Virus record (IMG/VR): IMGVR_UViG_3300032245_000578
Coordinates: 1 to 37,510 of that record
Direction: 5' to 3' (one strand)
From: a virus
Length of the DNA stretch: 37,510 bases
The translations under genes were made by a program, and so were the position numbers. The notes under the pieces were generated by a model. It had not been told where the DNA came from. It made no database searches and saw only the letters and a program-made list of their open reading frames with translations. Of this stretch, positions 3,760 to 32,226 are shown piece by piece (positions within the stretch are counted from its first letter, which is position 1; every line of letters starts with the position of its first letter).

Positions 3760-4044
3760 ATGTTACGATATGCTGAGTTGGTGTTTAGTGTACATTGCTT
3801 CTACGATCAACCCGTGCCACCAAGTTATAGAATATATGTCGACGATGATCTCATCACCGAGAGAACTTTTGCATGGAATCCTGTAACTGATTATATAGAA
3901 GAACATGTGGCAGTTGAAGCTAGACTAGGTCCTCATACATTGCGTGTTGAAAATATCACTCCCAAATTAGGCACCTTTGTGGTGGAAAATCTTCGTGTAG
4001 ACGGGTTGCCTGCGAACAGCAACTCAGTGTTCAATATAACATAA
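3760..4044 (+). CDS. Small beta-sandwich-like hypothetical protein, 94 aa
   Basis: The product is mostly beta strand: A-E-L-V-F-S-V-H-C-F-Y-D, Y-R-I-Y-V-D-D-D-L-I, V-A-V-E-A-R-L-G-P-H-T-L-R-V-E-N. A final L-R-V-D-G-L-P strand follows. The pattern matches the first half of the 157-residue protein at 2371, so the two may be distant relatives of a carbohydrate-binding-like fold. It starts three bases after the preceding stop. No signal or membrane segment is present. A role as a virion accessory protein is possible. Confidence 0.65.
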   Translation: MLRYAELVFSVHCFYDQPVPPSYRIYVDDDLITERTFAWNPVTDYIEEHVAVEARLGPHTLRVENITPKLGTFVVENLRVDGLPANSNSVFNIT

Positions 4045-4558: not shown

Positions 4559-5241
4559 TGGACATGCGAGACCTGCTAGGTAAGTTGGATACTCTTAACG
4601 AAGGCACAATGGCCGACGCTAAGAAAAAACCTACAGGTCCAAAACATACAGGCAAGTGGAAAGGCACAGATCCAGCCGGTGCGGCCAAGACCAAGTATGT
4701 GGGTGGTGAAAGCGTACTACGTGACTTAGAGGCCGCACTACACGAAACACCCGCTAGAGATTTGATGCGTGAATATAAGAACTTCATTAAAGAAGCACCG
4801 GTACAACCCAATGCACCCACATTGGGCACAGATTTAACCAAACCCGGTACACCGCAACAACAGCAACAACAGCAACAGCAACAAGATCCCGCACAAGTGG
4901 CTGCACAGCAAAAATTAGCACAACAAGAAAAAGCTGAACAAGTCAATTTACAAAAAGGTGTTGCCAATTTAAAGGCTGCTGGAGCCGCTGTCAGCAATCC
5001 AGCACAGGTGGTAAAAGCATTTGACAAAGTAGATGACCAACAGGCTTTGACTCCAGCAGATAAAGGCGCAGTTGCTACCGCAGGAACAGTATTAGCACCC
5101 ATCATGGCCAACCCACAGCTACAAGGCAAATTTAAAGATTTAGTCACGCAGGCCAGTGCCGAGCAAAAGAAACAACAACAAGCACAACAAACTGCCGCAC
5201 CTTCCGGCGCTGTGGGTGCACCAGTTCCAGGACCCAAATAA
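4558..5241 (+). CDS. Poly-Gln, Ala/Lys-rich hypothetical protein, 227 aa
   Basis: Coupled to the previous gene by TAATG. The N-terminus has L-D-T-L-N-E-G, then a Lys/Gly/Pro-rich low-complexity stretch. A short conserved-looking helix follows (E-S-V-L-R-D-L-E-A-A-L-H-E, then M-R-E-Y-K-N-F-I-K-E). Ten consecutive glutamines are coded by mixed CAA/CAG codons at 4855-4884. The C-terminal half is an Ala/Gln/Lys-rich helical region. L-N-E-G, L-H-E and I-K-E fit a hydrophobic-x-Glu protease site. It may be a scaffold or internal head protein, which is inference from composition and position. Confidence 0.6.
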   Translation: MDMRDLLGKLDTLNEGTMADAKKKPTGPKHTGKWKGTDPAGAAKTKYVGGESVLRDLEAALHETPARDLMREYKNFIKEAPVQPNAPTLGTDLTKPGTPQQQQQQQQQQDPAQVAAQQKLAQQEKAEQVNLQKGVANLKAAGAAVSNPAQVVKAFDKVDDQQALTPADKGAVATAGTVLAPIMANPQLQGKFKDLVTQASAEQKKQQQAQQTAAPSGAVGAPVPGPK

Positions 5242-8632: not shown

Positions 8633-9060
8633 CATTATCAGAAGCCACAAAAATAGCATTTGCCAGCGAATTTAGTTTTTATTTAAAAGCACACAACTTC
8701 CATTGGAATGTGGAAGGTGCTGACTTTTTAGAACATCATCAATTGTTCGGCCTTATCTACGAAGAAGTATACGGCGCCATCGATGACTTTGCAGAAAAGA
8801 TTCGCGGCATTGGAAGCTATGTACCTGCCAGTTATACTAGATTTAGTCACTTGACTGAAATCAACGACGAAACTGACATACTTAGTCCCGGTGCCATGTT
8901 ACATGAACTGTTTGCAGACAATGAAAAAATGTTAGTGGTTCTTAAGATGGCCTACGATCTGGCCGAACAAGTGGGTGAACATGGCTTCTCCAACTTCTTG
9001 GCTGAACGCATGGATGCACATCGTAAACACGGTTGGATGTTGAGAGCAAGTCTAAAATAA
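8629..9060 (+). CDS. Dps/ferritin-like protein, 143 aa
   Basis: The sequence carries the Dps signature H-N-F-H-W-N-V-E-G near residues 22-30, followed by D-F-A-E-K-I-R-G-I-G. These supply the His, Asp and Glu ligands of the inter-subunit ferroxidase site. Four helices of ferritin type fit the 143-residue length, slightly shorter than E. coli Dps because the basic N-terminal tail is missing. Dps proteins oxidise and store iron and protect DNA from peroxide. The start overlaps the mosaic gene by ATGA, so the two are probably co-expressed. A role in protecting host or phage DNA during infection is inferred. Confidence 0.85.
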   Translation: MTLSEATKIAFASEFSFYLKAHNFHWNVEGADFLEHHQLFGLIYEEVYGAIDDFAEKIRGIGSYVPASYTRFSHLTEINDETDILSPGAMLHELFADNEKMLVVLKMAYDLAEQVGEHGFSNFLAERMDAHRKHGWMLRASLK

Positions 9061-9761
9061 TGTTGCCCATTATAGCAACATTGATCATGACACATATCAC
9101 TATCATATGTGTTACAGTTTTCCTACACCGTGGACAAGCACATCGTGGATTGACGTTTCACCCCATACTGAGTCATTTCATGCGAGCCTGGCTTTGGCTC
9201 ACAACCGGAATGGTCACTAAACAATGGGTAGCAGTACACCGTAAGCATCACAGATTCACAGAACAAGAGGGAGACCCACATAGTCCCCATGTGTTTGGTA
9301 TCTGGCGAGTATTTTTTAAAGGAGCAGTATTATATCATGAAGCAAGCAAAGATACGGACATGGTTAATACATACGGTGTTGGCACTCCTGCTGATTGGGT
9401 CGAGCGCAACATATACTCTCGTCACAGTAGACTTGGCATTGGCATTCTCCTTGTGCTCAACTGCTGGTTATTCGGTTGGGTGGGCGCCATAGTATGGGCG
9501 GTGCAAATGCTGTGGATTCCATTCTGGGCCGCTGGAGTCATAAACGGATTAGGACATTGGATAGGATATAGAAATGGACATACTAAAGATCATAGTCGTA
9601 ATATTAGTCCTTGGGGCATTGTTATTGGTGGCGAAGAGCTCCATAACAACCACCACCTGGACCCAGCGAGTCCCCGGCTCAGCAAGAATTGGTTTGAATT
9701 TGATATAGGTTGGATGTATATAAATATTTTTAAATTACTCGGCCTTGTCAAAATCAAATGA
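9060..9761 (+). CDS. Fatty acyl-CoA/acyl-lipid desaturase, 233 aa
   Basis: Three histidine boxes of membrane desaturases are present: H-R-G-Q-A-H (H23-H28), H-R-K-H-H (H60-H64) and L-H-N-N-H-H (H195-H199). They bind the di-iron centre that introduces a cis double bond into an acyl chain. Hydrophobic segments near residues 1-20, 30-55 and 125-165 fit the stearoyl-CoA desaturase topology, although the protein is shorter than bacterial homologues. ATG 9060 overlaps the dps stop (TAATG) and is preferred over ATG 9033. A second desaturase is at 30566. The likely effect is a change in host membrane unsaturation during infection. Confidence 0.9.
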   Translation: MLPIIATLIMTHITIICVTVFLHRGQAHRGLTFHPILSHFMRAWLWLTTGMVTKQWVAVHRKHHRFTEQEGDPHSPHVFGIWRVFFKGAVLYHEASKDTDMVNTYGVGTPADWVERNIYSRHSRLGIGILLVLNCWLFGWVGAIVWAVQMLWIPFWAAGVINGLGHWIGYRNGHTKDHSRNISPWGIVIGGEELHNNHHLDPASPRLSKNWFEFDIGWMYINIFKLLGLVKIK

Positions 9762-10486: not shown

Positions 10487-11044
10487 ATGTTGATTAACAA
10501 ACAATGGGCATTGACTCGCCCAACTGATAAATCTGAATTACTAATAAGTGACAATCTACGTTTATTAAAATTCGTACAACTGGTCATGTCTAAAAGTATC
10601 ATTTTGTCTGTGAAAGAATCCACCGGAGTTGAAACCACAGACACACAACTACTGGACACACAAAACAAAGTAAAACTAACATACAAGTTGATAGAATCAG
10701 AACTGTCAAACATAGACCTGTTGTGTTTACAAAAACAACAAGAGTGGTTTCAAGTTGAATTGTTAGATGCTGTAAATGAATACTTGAACATTGTTGAAAT
10801 ACAAGATGAATTTGTTAATGCGGCATACAAATCTGAAAGAGATACTTTATTGATTTTTCAAACCACATGTAGTCAGCATAAAACTTTTATTTTTAAGTTG
10901 TTATCGTCAATTGACTATGTTGGTGGCTATGATGATATAAAACGACATTTAGAACTTGCAATAAAAGAGTCTATAGTTGGAGATACTAGATTTGTATTTG
11001 CAGATTTAAACAAATCCATACTGAAAGTTCTAAAAAATGTCTAA
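10487..11044 (+). CDS. Helical hypothetical protein, 185 aa
   Basis: No family is recognised. The sequence is mainly amphipathic helix with few glycines or prolines, for example L-T-Y-K-L-I-E-S-E-L-S and E-L-L-D-A-V-N-E-Y-L, and lacks membrane or signal segments. ATG 10487 follows a TATAAT by one base and has no Shine-Dalgarno sequence, so initiation could be leaderless or occur further downstream. The end overlaps the next gene (PP-loop enzyme) by eight bases, suggesting that the two work together. Confidence 0.65.
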   Translation: MLINKQWALTRPTDKSELLISDNLRLLKFVQLVMSKSIILSVKESTGVETTDTQLLDTQNKVKLTYKLIESELSNIDLLCLQKQQEWFQVELLDAVNEYLNIVEIQDEFVNAAYKSERDTLLIFQTTCSQHKTFIFKLLSSIDYVGGYDDIKRHLELAIKESIVGDTRFVFADLNKSILKVLKNV

Positions 11045-12215
11045 TGTTGCCCAATTGATTAGAACCAACAGACATATCAACATACCACTCACTGGTGGTA
11101 TGAACAATATCAACGGACGGTACTGGTTATCAATGCCAAGTATTATCTTTGCATTAACCGAAATCCGAGCAAGATCAGGCACATTTGCCAATCCCTGGCA
11201 GGCCGGGAAGAGTGAAGTATGTGCTCCACCACCGTTTGTAACAATACCCGACCGACTGAGTGATTTGCTTGATCAACGTGCAATTGAATTAAGTACCATT
11301 GCAAAAAGTCAAAACAAGCGCATACTGATCATGTGGAGTGGTGGGATTGATTCCACTGTGGTGGTTTCTTCGTTTATTAAAAATTTAAATGCGGCCGATT
11401 TAGACAATGTATCGATATTGTTGACCATGAATTCCATTACTGAGAATCCAGATTTTTACCAATCATACATTTCTGGACGTATTCATTGTATGCCTTATTT
11501 AGACTATGTTGTCAATAAAGAAAATCTCAACAAGTACATGTTGCTACACGGCGATCCAGCTGATTGTTTGTTTGGTCCAAGCACAGCCATGTTTGCAGAT
11601 TTAATTCCCACAGGAGACCATCTTAGACCCTTCAAGGACAATGTAAACTTGATTGCCAAATCAATTGATCGTAAATCGTTAAAAATAATTAAACAGCATC
11701 GAGTTGAGGGTTTTGGTAATTGGTATGCAAATAAAATCACCAACAATTTGCTTGAAGTTGCACCGCCCGGAGTAGATACCATTGGTGATTGGTGGTGGTG
11801 GCATTACTACAACTTCAAATGGGAATTTAGCATATGGCGTTATGTATTTCGTCGAAAATGTAACGGACACGAAAAAGAGTCGTTGAGTGAGAACGATATT
11901 AAACAAATTGTTGACCATACTTATTTTAATACGCCAAAATTCCAGCAATGGAGTTATACCAACTTAAAAAATCATATACAAACAGATCTCAAGAGTCACA
12001 AATTGCAGGCCAAACAATACATATATGAACTAGACCATAACCAATTATATTTTGATCGTAAGACTAAATTTGAATCTGTGCCCACATACAATCAGGGCTC
12101 TTTACTGCGGCTGAACAAACCATTCTTGTGGTCGCACAATTGGACTGGCCATTATCCCGACGAGCCATATCTAAAATTGGCCTGCATTGACATGTTGGAA
12201 TCGTATAAAGGTTAA
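11037..12215 (+). CDS. Asparagine-synthetase-like PP-loop ATPase without glutaminase domain, 392 aa
   Basis: The PP-loop S-G-G-I-D-S is at residues 101-106, and a second motif, G-D-P-A-D-C-L-F-G, is at 172-180. The second motif corresponds to the G-D-G-x-D-E-L-F-G motif of asparagine synthetase B and its relatives, which argues against QueC or other short PP-loop enzymes. These enzymes adenylate a carboxylate and transfer an amine. The N-terminal class II glutaminase domain is absent: the first 90 residues show no Cys2 nucleophile. It may therefore use ammonia, or a partner such as the preceding helical protein. The substrate is unknown; amidation of a peptide or base is possible. Confidence 0.65.
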   Translation: MSNVAQLIRTNRHINIPLTGGMNNINGRYWLSMPSIIFALTEIRARSGTFANPWQAGKSEVCAPPPFVTIPDRLSDLLDQRAIELSTIAKSQNKRILIMWSGGIDSTVVVSSFIKNLNAADLDNVSILLTMNSITENPDFYQSYISGRIHCMPYLDYVVNKENLNKYMLLHGDPADCLFGPSTAMFADLIPTGDHLRPFKDNVNLIAKSIDRKSLKIIKQHRVEGFGNWYANKITNNLLEVAPPGVDTIGDWWWWHYYNFKWEFSIWRYVFRRKCNGHEKESLSENDIKQIVDHTYFNTPKFQQWSYTNLKNHIQTDLKSHKLQAKQYIYELDHNQLYFDRKTKFESVPTYNQGSLLRLNKPFLWSHNWTGHYPDEPYLKLACIDMLESYKG

Positions 12216-17300: not shown

Positions 17301-17938
17301 TGTTGAATCTAATGCGTAGGGGTTATATGCCAGGTGGAGGAATGTTATCGCCTGACAAAAAAACTTTTGTGTTGGCTATTCCCAAAAATGCCAGCACCTA
17401 CGTGACCAATGTATTGCGAGCAAATGCCTGGTCGTACTCGGATATCATGCATATAGTCAATGCCGGACACGAGCACATAAAATGCGTTGTACTACTTCGT
17501 GATCCAACTGATCGTTGGGTTTCGGGCTTTGCTACATACTGTGCCAGTTATGTGCTGGGCTATGGATATGGTAGTGAGTACTTTGTGCGTGACTATAACG
17601 ATTTAACTGAACGCATTATCTTTGATAATTTAGTTTTTGATGATCACACAGAGCCACAAACTACGTTTGTTAAACAACTGCCTGCTCAATTTGATAAACA
17701 GTTTGTTCTTATCAAAGGTGGACGTGAGCGGTTGATTAAAAATTTATCTGACATTGTTGGACAAGAATTAACTGTGCCATTTGTAGATGCCAATGCGTCT
17801 GAAGACACCTATGATGTTAAAAACATTGCAGATTTTATGCGGGGCAGAATCACTGCACCATTACAAACAAAAATATTCGATAGGTATTACCGAGACTACG
17901 AAATGTTAACACAAGTATTGATACATGAACCAAGATGA
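17300..17938 (+). CDS. Sulfotransferase-family protein, 212 aa
   Basis: Starts at ATG 17300, overlapping the clamp stop (TAATG); the track start upstream lies inside the clamp gene. F-V-L-A-I-P-K-N-A-S-T-Y (residues 23-34) fits the 5'-phosphosulfate loop of PAPS-dependent sulfotransferases. L-L-R-D-P-T-D-R-W-V-S-G-F (R67-F77) fits the 3'-phosphate-binding motif. Members move sulfate from PAPS to sugar or protein hydroxyls. A phage could use it to decorate glycans or virion proteins. The last 14 bases overlap the DpdA-like gene. A role linked to modified DNA is possible but unsupported. Confidence 0.7.
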   Translation: MLNLMRRGYMPGGGMLSPDKKTFVLAIPKNASTYVTNVLRANAWSYSDIMHIVNAGHEHIKCVVLLRDPTDRWVSGFATYCASYVLGYGYGSEYFVRDYNDLTERIIFDNLVFDDHTEPQTTFVKQLPAQFDKQFVLIKGGRERLIKNLSDIVGQELTVPFVDANASEDTYDVKNIADFMRGRITAPLQTKIFDRYYRDYEMLTQVLIHEPR

Positions 17939-19544
17939 TTTAACCAGTAAGCAAAAAGACTATGCAGTATTCTTGCCTGCTATCTCTGGCTTCTATGCCA
18001 CCTTCATAGGTAGGCAAAGAGATACTGCCAGTGTACCATATGTAGACCCTGCACGTTTTCCGCAGGGCTTGACTGATATGGAGCAACTCAACTGGTTGAA
18101 CAGCCAGAAGTCGTTGTTCCCATATAAGTGGTCGCTTTACTCCGGCGGCCATGCTAACCTAGACCTTGCCAAGCAGGACTGGAGCGAGGATATGGTTCGA
18201 AATCGCGATCCCAACACACTGGTCTTAGGCGACTCTGGCGGATTCCAGATTGCCAAAGGACTATGGGAAGGCGACTGGAAAGCCAACTCAGGATGCCCGA
18301 AGGCCCAGAAAAAACGTGAACAAGTTTTGGCTTGGCTGGACGGCATTGCTGATTATGGAATGATTTTAGATATACCAACTTGGGTGGTAAATGATCCACA
18401 TGCTAGTTCAAAATGTCAAATTACTACACACCAACAGGCAGTTGATGCCACCAAGTTCAACAATGAATACTTTATGCGTAACCGCAAAGGTGTTAAAAAC
18501 GGTGGCGCCAAGTTCTTGAATGTTCTACAAGGTGCCACACACAGCGAAGCAGAGGATTGGTATCAAACCATGAAGCACTACTGCGATCCGGTCAAGTACC
18601 CAGACACACACTTTGATGGTTGGTCAATGGGTGGACAAAACATGTGTGACGTACACTTGATATTGAAACGTCTAGTGGCCTTGCGCTATGACAATTTATT
18701 ACAAGAGGGTGTACATGATTGGATGCACTTCTTGGGCACTAGTAAACTAGAGTGGGCTGTTTTATTAACTGTAATTCAACGTGCCATTAGGAAATATGTT
18801 AACCCACAATTTACCATATCTTTTGACTGTGCCAGCCCATTCCTTGCAACAGCAAACGGACAAGTGTACTTTGAAAACGTGTTCGAACACGATTCAAAAT
18901 GGAGTTACCGAATGGCTCCAAGTGCTGACGATAAACGATACGCCACAGACACACGCAAATGGAGTGACGGAGTAGTTGCTGATGGTATCTATCCACGGTG
19001 GGAAGACAGTCCCGTGAGCGACCTGTTCAAGATGAAAGACATCTGTATATATCGAGCAGGTACTCCCAAGCCAGGGGTGGTATTAACAGAAGAAAACTTT
19101 AAAGATCCCGAACTGTATGATGTGCTACCAGATGTTAATAAAAATGGCAAGTGGGGCAAAACATCGTGGGATAGTTTTAGTTATGCATTGCTGATGGGCC
19201 ACAATGTGTGGATGCATTTGACTGCTGTACAAGAAGCCAATAGACGTTTTGACGCTGGTGAACATCCTGCAATGATGCAACGGTCAGGCGGAGACTATGC
19301 TAGGTTTGAAGACATTATAGAAGCAATCTTTGCGGCTCCTACCAAACAAGATGCATTGGACATTATCGAGCTGTACGATACATATTGGATGGAAATTATC
19401 GGAACTCGTGGTGCCAAGGGCAAGAAAGCCAAAAACTCAAACACCATGTTCAAATCTCTATTTGAAGTTGACGAGCCCGAAAGCAATGACGACTCTGTTG
19501 ACTTGGACCAAACAGCACTAGACAACTTGGAAGGATCACGATGA
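17925..19544 (+). CDS. dpdA: DpdA/TGT-like base-exchange enzyme for 7-deazaguanine in DNA, 539 aa
   Basis: The TIM-barrel transglycosylase motifs of tRNA-guanine transglycosylase are clear. L-G-D-S-G-G-F-Q has D103 as the general base. A G-W-S-M-G-G-Q motif lies near 232-238 as a base-recognition loop. F-D-C-A-S-P-F has D301 in the nucleophile position of the bacterial TGT F-D-C-V-x-P motif. The zinc-binding Cys cluster of tRNA enzymes is not seen. Together with the phage setting and FolE, QueD and QueE in the same window, this points to the DpdA family, which swaps guanine for a 7-deazaguanine base in DNA. The acidic Ser/Asp-rich C-tail is unusual. It overlaps both neighbours. Confidence 0.8.
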   Translation: MNQDDLTSKQKDYAVFLPAISGFYATFIGRQRDTASVPYVDPARFPQGLTDMEQLNWLNSQKSLFPYKWSLYSGGHANLDLAKQDWSEDMVRNRDPNTLVLGDSGGFQIAKGLWEGDWKANSGCPKAQKKREQVLAWLDGIADYGMILDIPTWVVNDPHASSKCQITTHQQAVDATKFNNEYFMRNRKGVKNGGAKFLNVLQGATHSEAEDWYQTMKHYCDPVKYPDTHFDGWSMGGQNMCDVHLILKRLVALRYDNLLQEGVHDWMHFLGTSKLEWAVLLTVIQRAIRKYVNPQFTISFDCASPFLATANGQVYFENVFEHDSKWSYRMAPSADDKRYATDTRKWSDGVVADGIYPRWEDSPVSDLFKMKDICIYRAGTPKPGVVLTEENFKDPELYDVLPDVNKNGKWGKTSWDSFSYALLMGHNVWMHLTAVQEANRRFDAGEHPAMMQRSGGDYARFEDIIEAIFAAPTKQDALDIIELYDTYWMEIIGTRGAKGKKAKNSNTMFKSLFEVDEPESNDDSVDLDQTALDNLEGSR

Positions 19545-27235: not shown

Positions 27236-27970
27236 TTGAACGAAAATTGGATTGACACCATAGACGACAAAGGCTATGAAGAAGGTTACCTAGGCAACGC
27301 TATTCGTTTTCGAATGAAGCGTGACGGCAAAAGATTTTGGGCCGGCGACAACATCAGTGACTATGTCAGCGAAACAGACAAAGAACAATTGATCGACGAT
27401 GCCGCCGAAGCATTCGAAACTGTACTTGATCGTTTGTTGATTGATAGAGAAACTGACCCCAATAGTCAAGGCACAGCTCGTAGGCTGGCTAAGATGTACT
27501 TTAACGAAATAATGGCAGGAAGATATGAACCAGAACCAGATGCTACAGCATTTCCAAATGATTCGCAGGACCGTTACGAAGGCATGCTGGTTGTTCGCAG
27601 TGAGCTTCGGAGCATGTGTAGCCATCATCACCAACCCGTTGTTGGCGTTGCTTATATTGGTATTTTGGCTGCTAACAAACTTATTGGCCTATCCAAGTAC
27701 ACACGTATTGCTCAGTGGTGCGCCCGGCGAGGTACTCTCCAGGAGGAACTTTGTATTGATATTGCTAGGGAGATACAACGAGCCACCGACTCAGAAAACG
27801 TAGGTGTCTATATCCAAGCCACGCATGGTTGTTGCGAAAATCGTGGCATCATGGCACATAGCAGTTTGACCCAGACCACGGTGCTCCGTGGTGCGTTCAA
27901 AGACGATGCAGGGGTTAAGAAAGAGTTCATGGACAATATCAAACTGCAACAGGACTTTGCTCCGCGTTGA
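27236..27970 (+). CDS. folE: GTP cyclohydrolase I (FolE), 244 aa
   Basis: A TTG start at 27236, seven bases after GGAG, is preferred because no ATG lies at a suitable distance. The zinc ligands are present: C128-S-H-H131 and T-H-G-C199-C. Conserved G-L-S-K-Y-T-R-I-A-Q, Q-E-E-L and the C-terminal M-A-H-S-S-L-T-Q-T-T-V segment also fit. The enzyme makes 7,8-dihydroneopterin triphosphate from GTP, the shared first step of folate and of 7-deazaguanine synthesis. With queD and queE nearby, its role is most likely in the deazaguanine pathway. It has its own promoter. Confidence 0.92.
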   Translation: MNENWIDTIDDKGYEEGYLGNAIRFRMKRDGKRFWAGDNISDYVSETDKEQLIDDAAEAFETVLDRLLIDRETDPNSQGTARRLAKMYFNEIMAGRYEPEPDATAFPNDSQDRYEGMLVVRSELRSMCSHHHQPVVGVAYIGILAANKLIGLSKYTRIAQWCARRGTLQEELCIDIAREIQRATDSENVGVYIQATHGCCENRGIMAHSSLTQTTVLRGAFKDDAGVKKEFMDNIKLQQDFAPR

Positions 27971-29225: not shown

Positions 29226-29545
29226 TGGCATTACCGCCAGGGGTAACAGTCAACTACTTTATTGCCATTGAGATTGATCGTTTAACTGAAGAAATGGTTG
29301 AATGGTTTGAGATGATAGGCGGCAAGGTCGGTTCAGAAATCAAATGGACCAGAAGTGGTAGTACGCAGAATTGGCCTGTTGTACAATACGGTCGAGGCAA
29401 ACCCAGTTACTACAGACAAGATGGATCAGGCGGTGTGCGTCTAAACTTTCACGGTGATGATGCCAGTGCGGCCAGCATGTTTATCTTGAAATTTATGGAA
29501 CATGTGCAACAACACAACTTGACAAATCACTATAATAGTGTATAA
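29222..29545 (+). CDS. Hypothetical protein, 107 aa
   Basis: ATG 29222 or 29225 is usable (ATGATG at the overlap with the previous stop). It is an alpha/beta protein with V-N-Y-F-I-A-I-E-I-D and V-E-W-F-E-M-I-G-G-K-V, a Gly/Ser/Arg-rich middle and a helix near the end. No family recognised. The last codons hold the promoter that drives queD. Confidence 0.6.
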   Translation: MMALPPGVTVNYFIAIEIDRLTEEMVEWFEMIGGKVGSEIKWTRSGSTQNWPVVQYGRGKPSYYRQDGSGGVRLNFHGDDASAASMFILKFMEHVQQHNLTNHYNSV

Positions 29546-29546
29546 T
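29519..29546 (+). promoter_or_regulatory. queD: Strong sigma70-type promoter for queD
   Basis: TTGACA (29519-29524), a 16-base spacer and TATAAT (29541-29546). A second TATAAT lies at 29531, too close for the same -35. A TAAATA motif (29546-29551) overlaps the -10 end. Transcription would begin near 29553, immediately before the pseudoknot leader. Confidence 0.8.
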
Positions 29547-29554
29547 AAATACAT

Positions 29555-29615
29555 AGCGGCCTTGGCTTCATCCCGCTTTACAAACTCTGCCAGCCTATGC
29601 TAATTAACATAGGAG
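29555..29615 (+). promoter_or_regulatory. Candidate preQ1-like riboswitch with Shine-Dalgarno hairpin in the queD leader
   Basis: AGCGG (29555-29559) pairs with CCGCT (29573-29577). Inside the loop, TTGGC (29562-29566) can pair with GCCAG (29589-29593), giving an H-type pseudoknot with an A-containing linker, ACAAAC (29580-29585). Preq1-I riboswitches share this order and the A-rich tail; the 5' stem A-G-n-G-G matches the B. subtilis element. Directly after it, CCTATG (29594-29599) pairs with CATAGG (29608-29613), which overlaps the AGGAG ribosome site (29611-29615) before ATG 29623. This would allow ligand-dependent control of queD translation. Confidence 0.45.
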
Positions 29616-29622
29616 AAACAGC

Positions 29623-30129
29623 ATGACAACATCGAATCCCGTAGTTTACAAGTACACCAGTACCAAAGAGTATCACGACGCATTTCCATGTGCGTACAGA
29701 CAGTGGAGGAGCGATAGCCATTGTAATTTGATACACGGATATTCATTCTCAATGAAGTTCTATTTTGGAACCAACGAACTGGATGTGCGTAACTGGGCCG
29801 CCGATTATGGTGGACTCAAAGAACTAAAGAAGACCTTGGAAGACCAATTTGATCATACACTTATTGTGGCACAGGATGATCCCGAGATGGAGACATTCAA
29901 GTTACTGCAAGAAAAGAATATGGCCAAGGTTGTTGTGTTACCCCGACTGGGTTGCGAAGGACTCAGTGACATGCTGTACAAATATGTAAACGGAGTTTAC
30001 ATTCCCGAAATGTGGGGACCAGGTGAAGCGGCTCGCTTGTGGTGCTATCGAGTAGAAGTTAGAGAAACACAGGCCAACATGGCGTTTCGCGAAGGACATC
30101 GTGAATGGAATGAGGATTTGTTTGCGTAA
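29623..30129 (+). CDS. queD: QueD-like 6-carboxytetrahydropterin synthase, 168 aa
   Basis: Residues 33-41 read H-C-N-L-I-H-G-Y-S. C34 and H38 match the catalytic Cys and a zinc His of QueD, but the usual HGH is HGY (Y40). F-D-H-T-L-I-V-A-Q-D-D-P matches the conserved L-D-H motif. E-V-R-E-T-Q-A-N matches the late Glu-Thr motif. The enzyme converts dihydroneopterin triphosphate to 6-carboxytetrahydropterin. The replaced His could shift zinc binding to another residue in the insert before C34. The leader holds a promoter and a possible riboswitch. Confidence 0.8.
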   Translation: MTTSNPVVYKYTSTKEYHDAFPCAYRQWRSDSHCNLIHGYSFSMKFYFGTNELDVRNWAADYGGLKELKKTLEDQFDHTLIVAQDDPEMETFKLLQEKNMAKVVVLPRLGCEGLSDMLYKYVNGVYIPEMWGPGEAARLWCYRVEVRETQANMAFREGHREWNEDLFA

Positions 30130-30284: not shown

Positions 30285-30569
30285 ATGAATAGTAAAACCG
30301 AAGAAGCATTGGGCATATTGCAAGAAGAATGTGCAGAAGTAATTGTAGAAGTCAGCAAGATTCGTCGCTTTGGACTAACAACTGCACACTTCAAATCTGA
30401 CATGCAACACACCCATCAAACCATGTTGGAAATGGAAATAGGTGATGTTTTGGCCATGGTTGATATATTACTGGATCAAGAAATAATCAATAAGGAACGA
30501 CTAGATCAATATAAACAAAACAAAAAAGACAAACTTAAAAAATGGTCAAATCTTTATACAACACCATGA
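30285..30569 (+). CDS. MazG-like pyrophosphohydrolase, 94 aa
   Basis: The all-helical MazG/dUTPase-like pattern is present: L-Q-E-E-C-A-E-V-I-V-E-V-S-K supplies the E-E-x-x-E metal ligands, and M-E-I-G-D-V-L-A-M-V-D supplies the E-x-x-D pair. The size fits single-domain phage MazG-like enzymes, which hydrolyse non-canonical or excess NTPs and may affect the alarmone pool. It starts one base after the previous stop and overlaps the second desaturase by ATGA. Confidence 0.75.
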   Translation: MNSKTEEALGILQEECAEVIVEVSKIRRFGLTTAHFKSDMQHTHQTMLEMEIGDVLAMVDILLDQEIINKERLDQYKQNKKDKLKKWSNLYTTP

Positions 30570-31381
30570 CAAAAATTAACTTGTACGCCATTGTTGCTAG
30601 ATCTCTTTTTGCGATCTGGATAATCTCTATTCCTGTTAGTTTTATCATAGCAATGAATTATGATTTATGGTGGTGGTTCATTGGCGGTATTGTATATTCT
30701 AAAATTCTCGCATTCATTGGTGTACAAATTGGATTACATAGATACTTTGCACACCGCAGTTTTACCACCGGTAAACTGAGACATGTATTTTTATGTTGGA
30801 TTAGTGTACTAACTGGAGAAGGTAGCCCAACGCAATGGTCTATGATCCATCAACACCATCATAAAAATAGCGATACTGATTATGATTTTCATACCCCAAG
30901 AGATGGGTTCTGGCATGCGGCCCTGCTATGGCCTTTTAAAGGAAGCCAATGGTTTGCCAGCAGAAAAGTAAACTGGTTACCAATTGCTTATGCCAAAGAC
31001 CGATATATCAATTTTGTACATCAGTACTACGGAATAATTTGGATCACTTTGATTGGTGTCACATTGGCTATTGATTGGAAAGTGGCAATATTCTTGTTGC
31101 TTTTGCCTGCAGGATTTGCTACAATTAACTCCAACCTAATCACTAATGTATTTTGCCATATGCGATTTCCAGGATCTTACAGAACATTTGATTTACAAAA
31201 CGATAGTATCAATAATAAATGGTTACAGATGTATCAGTGGGGCGAAGGTTTACACAATAACCATCATAAATTTCCACAAAAATACACACAGGCTTACTTA
31301 CCCAGTGAATTTGATCCTGCCGCCTGGGCAATTGAAAAGTTTTTTCTAGTCAACGACTCACAATCTAAATACAAATTTTAA
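30566..31381 (+). CDS. Second fatty acyl-CoA/acyl-lipid desaturase, 271 aa
   Basis: Three His boxes: H-R-Y-F-A-H (H58-H63), H-Q-H-H (H95-H98) and L-H-N-N-H-H (H230-H234). The transmembrane pattern fits the stearoyl-CoA desaturase family and is longer than the 233-residue enzyme at 9060. ATG 30566 overlaps the mazG-like stop. The two desaturases are diverged in sequence, so they may act at different positions or chain lengths. The likely role is to increase membrane unsaturation in the infected cell. Confidence 0.9.
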   Translation: MTKINLYAIVARSLFAIWIISIPVSFIIAMNYDLWWWFIGGIVYSKILAFIGVQIGLHRYFAHRSFTTGKLRHVFLCWISVLTGEGSPTQWSMIHQHHHKNSDTDYDFHTPRDGFWHAALLWPFKGSQWFASRKVNWLPIAYAKDRYINFVHQYYGIIWITLIGVTLAIDWKVAIFLLLLPAGFATINSNLITNVFCHMRFPGSYRTFDLQNDSINNKWLQMYQWGEGLHNNHHKFPQKYTQAYLPSEFDPAAWAIEKFFLVNDSQSKYKF

Positions 31382-31386
31382 ATATT

Positions 31387-32226
31387 ATGAAACTAAAAAT
31401 CGCAGAACTATTTTATTCAATACAAGGCGAAGGGCGCTACATGGGTGTACCCAGTGTGTTTTTGCGTGTGTTTGGATGCAACTTCAAATGTGCCGGCTTT
31501 GGCATGCCTCGAGGAGAACTAAGCAATGAAGCAGAACTTATTAACCCTACTGACTATACCGACTACAAATCCCTTCCTCTTGTTAGTACAGGTTGTGACA
31601 GTTACGCTAGTTGGGATCCTCGCTTTAAGCATTTATCTCCCCTTCTTGATACTGATGCGATTGCCCTTGCTATTGTGGATACGCTACCGCACAAGGAATG
31701 GCGCGACGAACATCTCGTAATCACCGGAGGCGAGCCTTTGTTGGGTTGGCAACGAGCCTATCCCGACTTGTTAGATCATCCCAAAATGGCCGGCCTGCAA
31801 GAAATCACTTTTGAAACAAACGGCACTCAGGAACTCTCACTGGAATTTAAAAAATATCTTGAAGACTGGGTAGCACAAGATCTGCGTAGAGAAATTACAT
31901 TCAGTGTAAGTGCAAAACTTCCCGGCTCAGGTGAGCGGTGGGAGGAGGCAATACTTCCAGAAGTAGTATGCGAATACGAACAATATGGTACAGTATATTT
32001 AAAATTTGTAGTGGCAACAGAACAGGATGTAGCAGATGCAGAACGTGCAGTGGCAGAATATCGTCGGGCTGGTTTTACAGGCCATGTGTATATTATGCCT
32101 GTTGGTGGTGTTGAGCGGGTGTACCATCTTAATAATCGAGCGGTTGCAGACATGGCAATGCAAAGAGGATGGCGGTACAGTGATCGACTACAAGTGCCAC
32201 TATTTAAAAACGAGTGGGGAACCTAA
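31387..32226 (+). CDS. queE: QueE-like 7-carboxy-7-deazaguanine synthase, 279 aa
   Basis: It opens with F-Y-S-I-Q-G-E-G-R-Y-M-G, the QueE signature. The radical-SAM cysteines appear split: C31-x3-C35, then a roughly 34-residue insert and C70 in T-G-C-D-S-Y-A-S-W. This layout is seen in some phage and proteobacterial QueE proteins. I-T-G-G-E-P-L is the SAM-binding Gly-Gly-Glu-Pro motif. The enzyme makes 7-carboxy-7-deazaguanine from 6-carboxytetrahydropterin. A TTTTAAATATTATG lies at its start; no good ribosome site is visible. Confidence 0.88.
   Translation: MKLKIAELFYSIQGEGRYMGVPSVFLRVFGCNFKCAGFGMPRGELSNEAELINPTDYTDYKSLPLVSTGCDSYASWDPRFKHLSPLLDTDAIALAIVDTLPHKEWRDEHLVITGGEPLLGWQRAYPDLLDHPKMAGLQEITFETNGTQELSLEFKKYLEDWVAQDLRREITFSVSAKLPGSGERWEEAILPEVVCEYEQYGTVYLKFVVATEQDVADAERAVAEYRRAGFTGHVYIMPVGGVERVYHLNNRAVADMAMQRGWRYSDRLQVPLFKNEWGT

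Follow-up and report, generated by a model that had tools for sequence, protein, structure and literature searches.

A covarying pseudoknot in the leader of phage queD genes as a candidate riboswitch

The queD gene of a virus record from IMG/VR (IMGVR_UViG_3300032245_000578, positions 1 to 37,510; the whole 37,510-nucleotide stretch is hereafter the window) is preceded by a leader (29553-29622) that is almost certainly a structured RNA. Using computational analyses of this leader and its relatives, we give a probability of roughly 0.6 to its being a candidate cis-acting translational riboswitch of a class not in Rfam, in which a ligand turns queD ON. That the leader is a riboswitch, whatever the direction of its response, is quite likely: the aptamer is structured and conserved, and the mRNA leader that contains it is associated with a single pathway.

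Layout of the queD leader

A small ORF, which ends at 29545, precedes the leader, and queD follows it. The elements are as follows.

29519-29546, plus strand: sigma-70 promoter (TTGACA at 29519-29524, 16 nt, TATAAT at 29541-29546), 12/12 match
29545-29551, plus strand: ATAAATA, like a T4 late promoter, 3 nt before P1 and overlapping the sigma-70 promoter
29555-29559, plus strand: 5′ strand of P1, AGCGG, covarying with 29573-29577
29560-29563, plus strand: loop L1, CCUU; C29561 and U29562 are invariant in 57/57 protein-selected leaders, and 29560 is C, U or A
29564-29567, plus strand: 5′ strand of P2, GGCU (register test, z 9.1; tree test)
29568-29572, plus strand: loop L2, UCAUC; C29572 (column 26) is invariant (57/57) and occupies the position of the specificity base in preQ1-I
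29573-29577, plus strand: 3′ strand of P1, CCGCU (covariation)
29578-29590, plus strand: loop L3, UUACAAACUCUGC, with the near-invariant UAnAAAYUCUGC (columns 33-45)
29592-29595, plus strand: 3′ strand of P2, AGCC, whose last two bases are the first two of the anti-Shine-Dalgarno (anti-SD) strand
29594-29599, plus strand: CCUAUG, anti-SD strand of the sequestering helix P3 (6-bp hairpin, z -2.5)
29608-29613, plus strand: 3′ strand of P3, CAUAGG, covering AGG of the Shine-Dalgarno sequence (SD; folding, variants)
29611-29615, plus strand: SD, AGGAG (sequence)
29623-30129, plus strand: queD (QueD/PTPS family), the putatively controlled gene (PF01242, 2.6e-15; TIGR03367, 1.1e-8, below cut-off)

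The initial annotation had reported a consensus promoter just before the leader, the stem AGCGG/CCGCT and an A-containing linker, and all three were recovered here as the sigma-70 promoter, P1 and L3. The transcript is expected to start within a few bases of P1. No terminator-like site was found.

Related leaders and their gene context

A QueD search returned 80 loci, of which 75 hold upstream DNA, and the leader was found in all 75 of these related phage loci; the covariance model R1 scores the window leader at 59.9 bits. Scanning IMG/VR for the loop motif, blind to gene content, returned at least 120 loci. The protein-selected loci and the motif-scan matches listed amount to 143 distinct leader variants in two groups, one containing the window (window group, n = 94) and a sister group (n = 49). 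Part of this set was chosen by the motif, and the conserved columns quoted here come from the protein-selected set (57 distinct leaders).

Among the motif-scan matches listed and the QueD-search loci, 180 of the 184 true motif sites lie directly 5′ of queD. One gene is inserted between the leader and queD in L114, L123 and L148, with queD next, and the site of L130 is at a contig edge, where the downstream sequence reads as a QueD N-terminus at an apparent queD start. The inserted gene is methyltransferase-like in L123 and another gene in L148. In L052, counted in the 180, the first gene after the leader is PTPS-like, then comes queD; this gene (4575-5000) is a second, classical PTPS/QueD-like one. 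L058 has a methyltransferase-like gene inserted upstream of queD, and a degenerate second leader copy (3882-3929, 28.5 bits) was observed before this gene.

The 257 Gb of GTDB genomes gave one motif match, about the chance expectation for 19.5 specified bases, and bacterial copies of the leader were rejected on this ground. The leader was absent from the eight cultured-phage (isolate) queD loci examined, most of which are inside operons, and blastn of the leader against cultured phages gave weak matches only. Its carriers are environmental and probably T4-like phages.

Two helices covary in the leader family

Folding of the window sequence by itself gave a stability not beyond that of shuffles (z = -0.36 for the leader and -0.18 for the aptamer), the SD hairpin alone exceeding them (z = -2.5). 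Since the window fold was not beyond chance by itself, it was tested with relatives.

P1 is paired in 99.6-99.7% of cells, with 18 double-change cells compared to ~1.6 in shuffles, and 0/500 shuffles covaried as strongly. Its variants are AGCGG/CCGCU, ACCGG/CCGGU, AGAGG/CCUCU, AGUGG/CCACU and UGCGG/CCGCA. For P2, all registers were compared with shuffles over 75 distinct variants. The register of the family joins the stretch directly before UCAUC to the stretch directly after CUCUGC; it is paired in 81% compared to 51% in shuffles (z 9.1) and is realized by 16 different complete 4-bp helices, a bulge or mismatch being common. Mapped on the QueD protein tree, where leader exchange between phages would inflate the event counts, P1 changes on 13 branches, all from pair to pair and thus double compensations, and the first three pairs of P2 show 19, 11 and 15 pair-to-pair co-changes versus 0-6 in shifted registers; the third pair taken alone is within the co-change null (p 0.15).

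The initial annotation had proposed an H-type pseudoknot controlling queD, with the loop pairing UUGGC (29562-29566)/GCCAG (29589-29593), and had suggested looking for compensatory changes in related leaders. The fold and the leader are supported by the relatives, in which both P1 and P2 covary, but the P2 register drawn then is not: UUGGC/GCCAG can be drawn in the window (register z 2.7) and shows no clear excess of co-changes. We rejected it for the family, where GGCU/AGCC covaries instead; for the window RNA alone it is a possible pairing.

Nine loop bases (C9, U10, C26, A34, A37, A39, U41, C42 and G44) are invariant in the 57 distinct leaders not chosen by the motif, as expected of a ligand pocket. 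A coding explanation for the conserved block was rejected because leader length varies by single bases. At the level of sequence comparison, these data establish that the queD mRNA, at its expected 5′ end, carries a small H-type pseudoknot (P1 and P2) whose loops have invariant bases.

An alternative helix covers the queD start site

Leaders of the window group have a helix, P3, in which CCUAUG pairs with CAUAGG over the SD. The first two bases of CCUAUG also end the 3′ strand of P2, so that P2 and P3 exclude each other. The hairpin had been described earlier as formed by the 20 bases following the pseudoknot. It does cover the first three bases of AGGAG, but it does not simply follow, since two of its bases are shared with P2. 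CCUAUG/CAUAGG is present in 83 leaders, a compensated variant CCUAUA/UAUAGG exists, and a further compensated variant, CUCUAUU/AAUAGAG, occurs in a leader outside the window group. In 99% of the window group, at least 2 bases of P2 are also part of the best helix to the start region.

The start codon itself is the partner of the P2 3′ strand in the sister group: among 34 distinct cases, AUG is covered in 91%, mostly by 7-11 bp (L165, AAGUCAUC/GAUGACUU; L046, GCCAUUGUU/AACAAUGGC; L086, UGUCAUC/GAUGACA; L017, UGCCAUC/GAUGGCA). The P2 5′ strand of the sister-group leaders L068, L132 and L034 is AUGGCA, identical to the start region of queD, as if the two competed for one strand and the former were a start-codon decoy.

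In energy models used without pseudoknots, locking P2 made the start region cheaper to open by at least 1 kcal/mol in 95% of one set of leaders (n = 93) and 100% of a second (n = 47), the mean opening cost going from 6.7 to 3.8 in the first and from 10.2 to 6.1 kcal/mol in the second. Relative to a block of the loops alone, a block of P2 saves a further ~3-4 kcal/mol of this cost in the energy model. Both the shared bases and these models predict that aptamer and expression platform exclude each other.

For the window itself, locking P2 raised the unpaired fraction of the SD from 0.38 to 0.83 and lowered that of the start codon from 0.61 to 0.08; in the energy model, UAUGCU is freed and pairs with AGCAUG, which means that the ON effect may be partial. 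The opening cost falls from 6.6 to 4.5 kcal/mol, and the net sign in the window rests on this estimate.

Hence, as the P2 3′ strand is the anti-SD or anti-start strand, the start site should become accessible once the aptamer forms. A small molecule would stabilize the P1/P2 pseudoknot, which would take this strand off the start site and allow queD translation; with no ligand, the start site would be closed. We consider the ON direction likely, if with less assurance than the riboswitch function itself. An ON switch at a biosynthetic gene is unusual, and this counts against the ON reading.

A sequestering hairpin responding to no specific ligand, such as a thermosensor or a ribosome or stability element, could merely tune translation, and the sequestering helices are indeed modest (~-8 to -13 kcal/mol as duplexes). 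We regard this as very unlikely, as it leaves unexplained both the invariant, mostly unpaired bases of L1, L2 and L3 and the covarying P1/P2 pseudoknot.

Promoters around and probably within the leader

The late-promoter-like motif nTAARTA was found in the 35 nt that precede P1 in 82/94 window-group and 27/49 sister-group leaders, compared to 2.3% of random 35-nt windows, and in the window group mostly ends 3-12 nt before P1. Consensus sigma-70 promoters are located just upstream of the leader in the close kin of the window and, depending on the threshold, in 14-22 of the 49 sister-group leaders, some of which have the same arrangement as the window (e.g. L022, L029, L031 and L052).

The P3 loop reads TGCTAnnnT in 85/94 window-group leaders, 17-18 nt after an L3 hexamer that is TTTACA or TATACA. 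The C completing this L3 -35 is present in 86/94 window-group versus 5/49 sister-group leaders, counts that ignore kinship. L3 and the P3 loop of the window group look like a nested sigma-70 promoter with an extended -10 (e.g. L056, L010 and L025), and an mRNA started there would not include the switch. The nested -10 is missing in the window (CTAATTAA), where the upstream sigma-70 promoter is present instead.

This -35-like hexamer and its spacing to TGCTAnnnT could mean that the conserved block is a DNA promoter or operator and not an RNA. Such a reading is highly improbable, as the arms of both helices change together with pairing kept, the sister group lacks the -10 yet keeps the pseudoknot, and consensus promoters are found just upstream in the above fraction of that group. 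Promoter and RNA functions may be overlaid.

Pathway genes of the window and the putative ligand

The window encodes other 7-deazaguanine-related proteins in addition to QueD.

17925-19544, plus strand: TGT-fold (DpdA-like) base exchanger, 539 aa (AlphaFold pLDDT 80)
27236-27970, plus strand: folE, GTP cyclohydrolase I (PF01227, 2.9e-39)
31387-32226, plus strand: queE-like radical SAM enzyme (phrog_2076, 4.9e-52)

The 539-aa protein was not identified by Pfam, PHROGs, NCBIfam, PADLOC or PDB sequence searches, its predicted fold alone identifying it: tRNA-guanine transglycosylases fill the first 18 places among its PDB structure matches (E 6e-7 to 9e-5). It has relatives in 17/20 leader-bearing records. 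The motif LGDSGGFQ was also seen in this protein. No convincing QueC was found in the window; a 392-aa protein (11037-12215) is PP-loop ATPase-like (SGGIDST) and weakly QueC-like, and could be a divergent QueC. A small MazG-like protein (30285-30569, below the Pfam cut-off) is encoded just after queD, and the window also encodes a fatty acid desaturase (30542-31381, Pfam match) and a second desaturase-like histidine-box protein (9033-9761).

DpdA phages place 7-deazaguanine into DNA, and this pathway can protect phage DNA from restriction (PMC6884629). The set of FolE, QueD, QueE and TGT-fold protein fits a phage placing a 7-deazaguanine into nucleic acid, with DNA as the putative target.

With these four proteins encoded, a 7-deazaguanine or a pterin is a likely ligand. 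The gene context suggests a guanine-like compound of the queD pathway, possibly read by the invariant C29572. A 7-deazaguanine (preQ0, preQ1 or CDG) is our putative choice at a little under even odds; a pterin such as 7,8-dihydroneopterin triphosphate, the QueD substrate, has about one chance in four. The full picture, a phage-restricted class in which a 7-deazaguanine or pterin turns queD ON by a hand-over of one strand between aptamer and start site, with many members carrying a nested promoter for a switchless mRNA, likewise has a little under even odds. The class is likely new relative to Rfam 15 and the open literature searched.

Comparison with known systems

The leader had been annotated as a possible preQ1-type riboswitch, and several of its features speak for a divergent preQ1-I riboswitch (RF00522), in which preQ1 or preQ0 would bind the pseudoknot and repress queD. 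Like preQ1-I, it is a small pseudoknot of the H-type that opens the mRNA of a queuosine-pathway gene, with a P1 of ~5 bp closed by G-C (GG/CC invariant in the 57 distinct leaders), an A-rich first half of L3 and, as in some preQ1-I members, translational control without a terminator. C29572, just before the P1 3′ strand, corresponds in position to the preQ1-I specificity base (PMC11625349). This C (57/57) is preceded by U in 48, A in 5 and C in 4 leaders; UC, the form in most leaders, is also that of type I preQ1-I (PMC11625349).

However, two defining features of the preQ1-I pocket are absent. The first L1 position, U in preQ1-I (U6), is C in 23, U in 18 and A in 16 of the 57 leaders. The 13-nt L3 ends in CUCUGC (the six bases before P2 being YUCUGC in nearly all of the 57) and thus lacks the ligand-reading adenine before P2 (A30), whose placement at the P2 end of L3 is our interpretation of PMC11625349 and of known sequences.

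Rfam, its preQ1 models included, gave no match at E ≤ 10 to the window leader or to L017, the most preQ1-like leader by eye; RF00522 had no match above its gathering threshold in the whole window, and on 20 related records gave no match over the cut-off and none at a leader. In the usual preQ1-I logic, the ligand hides the SD inside P2. This logic is reversed in the leader, as its P2 3′ strand is the anti-SD or anti-start strand and not the SD, and so is the predicted sign. The leader also differs from preQ1-I in its single, chance-level GTDB match. No Rfam match to preQ1-II or preQ1-III was found at E ≤ 10 either, and the fold of the leader is H-type, not HLout. By the tests run, the leader is not preQ1-I, and we consider a divergent member of that class unlikely.

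The T4 gene 32 leader is likewise an H-type pseudoknot in a phage mRNA leader controlling translation, and its binding by gp32 is a precedent for a protein-binding operator (PMC3014915). A phage protein, for instance QueD or a T4-like translational repressor, could similarly bind the strongly conserved loops found here. The gene 32 pseudoknot nucleates a cooperative coating by gp32, which spreads on an unstructured A+U-rich leader, and it is not known to have an alternative strand of this kind, whereas the present leader has an alternative anti-SD or anti-start strand, dedicated covarying alternative helices and a tie to one pathway gene. A protein operator is therefore improbable, to about the same degree as a divergent preQ1-I, and we favor the ligand-driven riboswitch.

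Phage riboswitches are rare. A phage-only class, if the leader is one, would imply that metabolite sensors evolve within phages themselves. A P2 strand similar to the AUGGCA start region, competing with it for the anti-start strand, makes the start-codon version a clear and testable switch design, and the question of which compound these phages measure before making 7-deazaguanine becomes testable. A documented phage riboswitch belongs to a class known from bacteria: the marine methylophage Melnitz and its relatives carry a glutamine riboswitch (PMC9004378). The leader described here is, like it, carried by phages, but the Melnitz element represents a known bacterial class in a tmRNA context, while this one is phage-restricted and stands before queD.
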